Source: Acidobacteriota bacterium (lineage in GTDB: Bacteria > Acidobacteriota > Blastocatellia > HR10 > JACQTD01). From it: DNA of 32,037 nucleotides. Position numbers and translations under genes: made by a program. Positions 24,871 to 26,508 of the stretch are shown here, in pieces. Below the pieces are notes generated by a model. That model was not told where the DNA came from. It made no database searches and worked only from the letters and a program-made list of their open reading frames with translations. The stretch is taken from NCBI GenBank assembly GCA_016210985.1, contig JACQTD010000140.1, forward strand, positions 1 through 32,037, written 5' to 3'. Numbering within the stretch: position 1 is the first letter of the stretch; each line of letters begins with the position of its first letter.

Positions 24871-25203
24871 ATGGGGGCTATCTTGAGAAAGCAATCGTCT
24901 CCAATGCTGCATCGCATACCGATCACCAAAGCGCGGATCAACCTCGGTCAGGTTGCCCGCCGAGCCCATGTCGATAAGGAGTACTTCATCCTCGAGAAGG
25001 ATGGCATTCCAGTGGCCGGCATCATGGATGCGGATGAGCTCGAGGATTACCTTGAATTGCGGGATCCGAAAGTCCGTGAGCACATCCGCAAGAGCAATGA
25101 GGAGTACCTGGCCGGTAAGAGTCGTCCACTGGAGGAGTTTCTTGCCGAACTCAAAAAAGGCACGGCAAAGAGAGCCAAACCCACACGGCGTCGCAAAGGA
25201 TGA
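24871..25203 (+). CDS. Phd/YefM-type antitoxin
   Basis: ITKARINLGQVARRAHVDKEYFILEKDGIPVAGIMDADELEDYLEL; overlaps downstream toxin by 4 bp. Confidence 0.8.
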   Translation: MGAILRKQSSPMLHRIPITKARINLGQVARRAHVDKEYFILEKDGIPVAGIMDADELEDYLELRDPKVREHIRKSNEEYLAGKSRPLEEFLAELKKGTAKRAKPTRRRKG

Positions 25204-25490
25204 AGCCGCTTTTTTCTGTTCGGAGCACCACGCGGTTTGAACGGCTCGTCCGTAGGCACCTCAGGGGCCATCGTGAACTCCCCGCCGTACAAGAGCGCGC
25301 GTGGCACATGCTCCAAACCGACCCCTACAATCGTTCGCGGCAGTACCAGATCAAGAAACTTGAAGGCGTGGTGCAAGGCAACGGTCAGTACCGGTTGTCA
25401 TTAGGCCGCTGGCGGTTTCGCTATGACATCTATGACGAGGAGGTGGTTGTCCAATTCTGCGGCCTGCGGCGTGAAGATACGTATCGTTGA
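25200..25490 (+). CDS. RelE/ParE-superfamily toxin
   Basis: IKKLEGVVQGNGQYRLSLGRWRFRYDIYDEEVVVQFCGLRRE. Confidence 0.8.
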   Translation: MKPLFSVRSTTRFERLVRRHLRGHRELPAVQERAWHMLQTDPYNRSRQYQIKKLEGVVQGNGQYRLSLGRWRFRYDIYDEEVVVQFCGLRREDTYR

Positions 25491-25775
25491 CCCGCGGGCC
25501 CAGCGGAGGTTGCGGCATGCACTACGTTTGTTAGGTAAAACTTAGCTCCGATCCCGCGGGCAGTGGCGGCCAGGGCGGTTTTACATAAATAACCGTTATC
25601 AGAGGCGGTGACGATGACATCCAACCCCCCTTTCGACCTGACGGGCAGCTGAGGCGCTCTTCCATGCAAGCAGTTTTTATCTCCTCCGGCCGCCGAGCCA
25701 GGGGCGACAGGTTCGGGCCGATCGGACGAGCTCACTTTGGCTGCCGGTAGGGTTCGGGCCGGCCCAAGAACCCAT

Positions 25776-25803
25776 TTGACATTTGTTTCGAGCCTGGTAT
25801 CCT
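25776..25803 (+). promoter_or_regulatory. Putative promoter of second TA module
   Basis: TTGACA 25776-25781, 16-bp spacer, TATCCT 25798-25803. Confidence 0.5.
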
Positions 25804-25832
25804 GTAACAAAAGGTCACACCCACTAACACCC

Positions 25833-26213
25833 ATGAGAACACGCGAAACCATCACCATCTCTTTGCCGCCCGCGATGCTTCGAGAGGTCGAGCGGATACG
25901 CAAAGCGGAGCACCGCAGCCGAAGCGAGCTTCTGCGCGAAGCGCTGCGCGCTTATTTCCTTCGGCGATTCCCCGAAGTCGCGCCCACCAAGGCCGAACTC
26001 CGTGCCCTGGAGCAAGGTCGGGCAGCAATGCGCAAAGGAGAGTACATCACGCTCGATGAGCTTGAGGACTATCTTGAGCTGCGGGATCCTAAGATACGGC
26101 GTCAGATCGAGGAGAGTAACGAGGATATCCGCGCACGTAGAACCCGGCCGGCGACGGCGCTACTCTCTGAACTGCGCAAGGTGAAGAGCAAGAAGGGTAA
26201 GGGCGCCCGCTAA
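25833..26213 (+). CDS. RHH/CopG-type antitoxin with Phd-module-like C-terminus
   Basis: RETITISLPPAMLREVERIRKAEHRSRSELLREALRAYF is an RHH fold; C-terminal DELEDYLELRDPK identical to the adjacent Phd antitoxin. Confidence 0.82.
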   Translation: MRTRETITISLPPAMLREVERIRKAEHRSRSELLREALRAYFLRRFPEVAPTKAELRALEQGRAAMRKGEYITLDELEDYLELRDPKIRRQIEESNEDIRARRTRPATALLSELRKVKSKKGKGAR

Positions 26214-26217
26214 ACGG

Positions 26218-26508
26218 ATGACGCCCGGGTTTTCTGTTCATACCACCGCCCGCTTTGACCGTGAGCTACGCAAGCTGAATCGACATCATCCGGACCTGGC
26301 GGCGCTCTACCAGCGCGCCTGTTCGATCCTGGCCACCGACCCCTACAACCAAAGCCGCGAGCATCCCATCAAGAAACTTGAAGGCGGGAAGCCAGGCCAG
26401 GGACAGTACCGTGTCCGATTGGGCCGCATTCGGTTTCGCTACGACATTGAAGGCCAGGTTGTGTATCTGAAGGCTTGCTCATTGCGCCGAGAAGAGACCT
26501 ATCGTTGA
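26218..26508 (+). CDS. RelE/ParE-superfamily toxin, paralogue of 25200-25490
   Basis: FSVHTTARFDREL...TDPYNQSREHPIKKLEG...GQYRVRLGRIRFRYDIEGQVV...LRREETYR. Confidence 0.82.
   Translation: MTPGFSVHTTARFDRELRKLNRHHPDLAALYQRACSILATDPYNQSREHPIKKLEGGKPGQGQYRVRLGRIRFRYDIEGQVVYLKACSLRREETYR

Follow-up and report, generated by a model that had tools for sequence, protein, structure and literature searches.

An RHH-type antitoxin N-terminus on a Phd-family tail and toxin: a putative natural domain-plus-operator exchange in an Acidobacteriota genome

Two type II toxin–antitoxin (TA) modules lie in tandem on the forward strand of the window, the 32,037-nucleotide stretch of Acidobacteriota DNA analysed here, with module 2 downstream of module 1 and 342 bp between them. 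Both have the gene arrangement typical of type II systems, i.e., short adjacent genes, antitoxin first, with the toxin starting at or overlapping the antitoxin stop: the start of toxin 1 overlaps the stop of antitoxin 1 by 4 nt, and toxin 2 begins after a gap of 4 nt. Each module has its own promoter-like site. The source genome is a fragmented draft (347 contigs, 79% complete) and holds no further copy of the toxin family. The features are listed below.

24813–24840, +: promoter-like site of module 1, TTGACA-16-TATGAT (11/12 matches)
24846–24861, +: operator candidate of module 1, the inverted repeat TGATCAACGTTAATCA, with outer arms ATGAGGA (24839–24845) and TCCTCAT (24866–24872)
ATG 24871 or TTG 24883 to 25203, +: antitoxin 1, Phd/YefM type (PF02604)
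about 24916–25071, +: Phd domain of antitoxin 1
25033–25158, +: shared tail of antitoxin 1, 42 aa, DELEDYLELRDPKVR...AELKK, from tail comparison and profile
25200–25490, +: toxin 1, RelE/ParE superfamily (putative), 96 aa
25776–25803, +: promoter-like site of module 2, TTGACA-16-TATCCT with a TG extension (10/12 matches)
25805–25826, +: operator candidate of module 2, TAACAAAAGGTCACACCCACTA, an RHH-family array
25833 (ATG)–26213, +: antitoxin 2, a putative hybrid of RHH domain (PF01402), RHH-family linker, and Phd-family tail (tail alignment)
25833–26063, +: residues 1–77 of antitoxin 2, the part from the RHH antitoxin family
26052–26063, +: junction codons CTC GAT GAG CTT (LDEL)
26055–26180, +: shared tail of antitoxin 2, from the Phd-type family
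26218–26508, +: toxin 2, RelE/ParE superfamily (predicted), 96 aa

The two toxins are related, as the original prediction held: they are 55% identical and 72% similar over 96 residues without a gap (E = 4e-36 in a two-sequence test), with a dN of 0.39 and a dS of 1.04. Modelling with AF2 (pLDDT 86) predicts a RelE fold for toxin 2, which places it in the RelE/ParE superfamily; the top Foldseek matches are RelBE2 of M. tuberculosis (3g5o, 3.8e-4) and the archaeal aRelE (1wmi, 8.7e-4), and the toxin-family profile matches the archaeal RelE sequence at E = 4e-4. Neither protein reaches the ParE_toxin (PF05016) cut-off of 23 bits: toxin 2 scores 13.8, and toxin 1 gives no match. The same profile matches five of the 16 toxin-family members at E ≤ 0.01. 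All 16 have K53 and R65, and nearly all have R72 and R90; these conserved basic residues fit a RelE-type mRNA endonuclease. Both proteins are presumably toxic and would act as ribosome-dependent mRNA endonucleases, a target that can only be read indirectly, since gyrase-poisoning ParE toxins have the same fold.

At their N-termini, the antitoxins differ in the way first proposed, Phd/YefM against RHH. Antitoxin 1 narrowly passes the curated cut-off of PF02604 PhdYeFM_antitox (30.3 bits against 29.8, E = 3.7e-7), and antitoxin 2 passes that of PF01402 RHH_1 (40.7 bits against 20.5, E = 1.9e-10). Neither matches the other’s family in the Pfam scan, and PF02604 is not listed for antitoxin 2 at E up to 10; one common fold for both N-termini is ruled out by the separate Pfam families. 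At their C-termini, the two proteins align over 52 aa with 54% identity (E = 3e-16). A 42-aa tail profile, which has both antitoxins among its sequences, recovers both at E of ~1e-23 to 1e-24 genome-wide and also matches many relatives in other genomes. The shared segment is therefore not a short low-information motif, an objection that had been raised with the original prediction and that does not refute it. The tails are expected to neutralise the toxins, which the shared inheritance of tail and toxin in the trees below supports indirectly; the AF2 model of antitoxin 2 is of low confidence (pLDDT 59). The age of the shared block had been argued from its codons, and here the count stands, but the reasoning does not. 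The codons for the 13 identical residues are indeed 6 identical and 7 synonymous, with no non-synonymous difference; the block, however, was picked for identical residues, so that non-synonymous changes were impossible in it and the argument is circular. Across all 42 tail codons (9 identical, 16 synonymous, 17 non-synonymous), NG86 gives no finite dS, i.e., synonymous change is saturated, and this, together with the toxin dN and dS given above, leaves the view of an old and constrained block standing.

Relatives of the tail and toxin were drawn from roughly 1,000 genomes; about 12–18 candidates were scored per genome in the large searches, so that the frequencies from them are lower bounds. 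A toxin alignment search of named genomes found loci in Solibacteraceae SbA4 (L006), Acidobacteria RIFCSP (L007), Latescibacterota (L008), and Acidobacteria gp3 (L009), and the tail and toxin profiles brought in at least about 40 further loci. Among 38 tail-bearing modules with a placeable start, the antitoxin N-terminus is of the Phd type in 34, of the AbrB/MazE type in three (L006, L065, L095), and of the RHH type in one, module 2 of the window, so that an RHH N-terminus with a Phd-family tail was seen once, in a draft genome, among the candidates scored. These labels come from Pfam where scanned and from plain sequence similarity for the remainder; PF04014 matched in the two AbrB modules that were scanned, in L006 below the cut-off. 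One genome (G517) holds both Phd and AbrB versions (L009, L061, L065). Viral contigs queried with the toxin, the RHH part, and the tail yielded no confirmed relative, and neither a plasmid search nor PADLOC returned a match.

Two further observations concern the wider family. Frameshifted toxin genes occur in L009 (3001–3289), L012 (1351–1638), and L079, reflecting decay or sequencing error; those of L009 and L012 adjoin an intact Phd antitoxin. A second common tail (like GIRQGLDDVAHGRTRPAREVFDEIRRKHDIPR) stands behind Phd-type N-termini in L066, L101, and L104 (PF02604 in L101) and, in L099, L100, L103, and L105, behind a short N-terminus of another kind that has no clear Pfam match, apparently another N-terminal exchange.

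The N-terminal part of antitoxin 2 leads to a different family. Its first 81 residues, used as a query, recovered L107, from the same class and 60% identical over residues 1–78 (59–60% throughout the 77 residues listed above), and an alignment of antitoxin 2 with L107 recovered about a dozen more relatives in another class; the RHH family comprises L107 and L112–L125. Most of its native antitoxins stop 10–25 residues past GEYVTLDEL, where antitoxin 2 enters the Phd-family tail, and these native relatives are without that tail. The five RHH-family toxins read out in full form a separate RelE clade (100/100) and give no significant BLAST match to toxin 2. Antitoxin 2 lacks both the C-terminus and the native toxin of this RHH–RelE family. 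At the junction, ‘DEL’ is coded by both parent families, and L107 and the Phd-type L080 share 10 nt there (CGATGAACTC), a match that is only suggestive because some of it follows from encoding the same three residues.

A scan of 24700–26700 returned only two promoter-like sites, both on the forward strand and one directly before each antitoxin gene, against 0.9 expected by chance. Directly after that of module 1 stands TGATCAACGTTAATCA. The corresponding consensus TGATnAACGTTnATCA was derived from module 1 and then looked for in the other modules: about two thirds of those of the Phd type reach p ≤ 0.02, and module 2 (7/14, p = 0.96) and the three AbrB modules lack it upstream. Along the same lines, a consensus-free test found a perfect 16-nt palindrome in 7 of 34 Phd upstream regions versus 0.6% of random windows. 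In several Phd relatives, among them L007 and L080, two of the four nearest to module 2, the TGATnAACGTTnATCA palindrome is weak or missing, so that the operator that module 2 would have lost is deduced from the wider family. Module 2 has a different candidate: a 22-nt motif learned from 13 RHH-relative upstream regions, with module 2 excluded, scores 16.5 bits at 25805–25826, which beats 2000 of 2000 shuffles and all Phd and AbrB upstream regions and is reached by 8 of 2000 random windows; on the module 1 upstream region, it scores −4.8. A 30-nt version of the motif places module 2 out of register (10.2 bits), and the 22-nt form places it in register. The RHH–RelE family (L107, L112–L125) has a conserved operator-like array, roughly GTAAnA....GTnTTAC....GTAACACC. 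These upstream motifs are probably operators, and since the change of motif matches the change of domain, the operator of module 2 appears to have been exchanged together with the DNA-binding domain.

We consider it probable (about 85%) that antitoxin 2 is a hybrid, made by an in-frame junction at the ‘DEL’ codons. Module 1 has the family’s usual form, in which the Phd/YefM domain presumably represses its own promoter through the TGATnAACGTTnATCA palindrome and the helical tail presumably blocks the toxin by wrapping it. Module 2 would stem from another Phd-type branch of this RelE-type family, in which in-frame recombination rebuilt the antitoxin: the promoter, the operator, and residues 1–77 (RHH domain and linker) would come from an unrelated RHH-type antitoxin operon, and the tail and toxin from the Phd-type operon, the direction of the swap being from Phd to RHH. 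The junction may have arisen in one recombination step.

Antitoxin 2 retains almost an entire RHH antitoxin, up to and including TLDEL, and the protein might be bivalent, with the RHH linker directed at a foreign RelE toxin and the tail from the Phd family at toxin 2. If true, one protein would block two unrelated RelE subfamilies, both rewired to one operator. This is unlikely: of 22 conserved family positions in the RHH domain, 21 are retained, but the linker carries Glu in place of R60, an Arg conserved in 14 of 14, and also departs at I59. Moreover, no convincing counterpart of the toxin native to the RHH family turned up in the source genome, where the best candidate reaches 30% identity.

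Trees built from 24 intact modules place the tail and toxin of module 2 among Phd modules. The toxin tree groups module 2 with L080, L007, L088, and L082, all of the Phd type (97/95), the tail tree independently with the same four (93/94), and the concatenated toxin and tail tree likewise (97/98); this agreement indicates that tail and toxin travelled together. Module 1 falls elsewhere in the larger group, apart from this subclade. A local tandem duplication, after which one copy received a new N-terminal domain, would explain why the modules are adjacent and co-directional with toxins 55% identical, but the grouping of module 2 with Phd modules of other genomes makes it very unlikely. The AU test rejects the window modules as sisters under the model used (p = 0.005, at a cost of 32.6 log-likelihood units; p = 0.018 for the toxin alone), which argues that module 2 did not arise as a local copy of module 1. 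A clade uniting the RHH and AbrB forms is rejected too (AU p = 0.012), ruling out a single origin of all non-Phd N-termini. On these trees, the N-terminus has been replaced at least twice in the family: Phd by RHH in module 2, and by an AbrB version elsewhere. The proposal of one tail and toxin behind different operator-binding folds, first drawn from two sequences, is now backed by trees and operator motifs.

Also very unlikely is that the likeness of the tails is convergent, or reflects a short motif under selection for binding RelE-type toxins that resemble each other. Other RelE antitoxin tails in these genomes are indeed loosely similar (e.g., GIRQGLDDVAHGRTRPAREVFDEIRRKHDIPR), but the extent and identity of the tail alignment, a tail tree that repeats the toxin tree’s placement of module 2, and native RHH relatives without the tail all speak for descent. 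Equally improbable is that assembly wrongly joined two unrelated loci, which the 347 contigs and the single hybrid found would allow, but which sits poorly with a continuous, in-frame ORF followed 4 nt later by toxin 2, with promoter-like and operator-like motifs directly upstream, with extant parents that match exactly at the junction over ~10 nt, far below usual assembly overlaps, and with a genome in which the toxin family has no further copy and the RHH part no close one.

The surroundings of the two modules contain several other features. A third TA module lies downstream on the forward strand, with an AbrB/MazE antitoxin (29069–29347; PF04014, 1.1e-11) bearing a RelE-type tail, EGLADIKKGRTYGPFSSAEELLHSL, and a RelE/ParE-like toxin (29344–29589), so that, within 5 kb, RelE-type toxins are preceded by antitoxins of three DNA-binding folds (Phd, RHH, AbrB). 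The remains of an IS3-type element (29512–30465, reverse strand; HTH_Tnp_1 and a shortened HTH_21/rve ORF) reach into the end of toxin 3. At 30597–31682 on the forward strand lies an IS630-like DDE_3 transposase, and the region looks like a mobile island. An inverted repeat, AGGGGTCAGACCT ... AGGTCTGACCCC, at 24518–24573, just upstream of module 1, is possibly a repeat element, and a 240-aa ORF without a Pfam match (26717–27439, forward strand) comes right after module 2.

The usual case for antitoxin modularity is drawn from tables of family-level pairings. The present modules allow a single replacement to be traced inside one family, with a junction located to within a few codons and with parent families for each half present in other genomes. 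A joint move of promoter, operator, and repressor domain suggests how such a swap can avoid an unregulated intermediate, and the unswapped neighbour provides a ready bench pair for comparing tail cross-neutralisation with operator cross-talk.

Several known systems resemble parts of this arrangement. YefM-YoeB, termed a hybrid system (PMC4803016), and RelJ-RelK (RelBE2, Rv2865-Rv2866) likewise combine a Phd/YefM antitoxin with a RelE-superfamily toxin; RelBE2 (3g5o) is the best structural match of the toxin 2 model, and antitoxin 1 weakly matches Rv2865. In those systems, however, the pairing is at the family level, whereas in module 2 the Phd domain would have been replaced within a lineage that kept its tail and toxin. 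Archaeal RelBE shares the toxin fold as well as the profile match to aRelE, but a sequence search of solved structures matched its antitoxin to neither antitoxin here. TasA-TasB (mazE-doc) joins an AbrB/MazE-type antitoxin to a Doc-type toxin and is called composite and modular (PMC1626090); in the accessible part of that source, whole genes and families are paired and, unlike for module 2, neither operator nor junction is traced. For NetFlax and Panacea-Phd-C, new antitoxins are proposed to arise when a linear neutralising element is fused to, or exchanged with, another DNA-binding domain, and an engineered fusion of Phd-C to SUMO still neutralised its toxin (PMC10440598); module 2, by contrast, would be a natural, RelE-type exchange resolved to parent families, junction, and upstream motifs. 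In situ displacement, and the mixing and matching of TA partners, are a general concept of modular reassembly (PMC3920263, PMC2701414), and what module 2 would have displaced is half a gene and its control region. In the literature searched, with most subscription journals lying outside it, we found no account of a natural exchange followed back to its two parents along with the operator. Antitoxin modularity is well known, as is the pairing of antitoxins and toxins from different superfamilies in hybrid systems (PMC4803016, PMC2701414, PMC1626090, PMC3920263), for which the exchange of linear neutralising elements has been put forward as the route (PMC10440598); the new element would be a natural domain-plus-operator swap in which both parents are identifiable.
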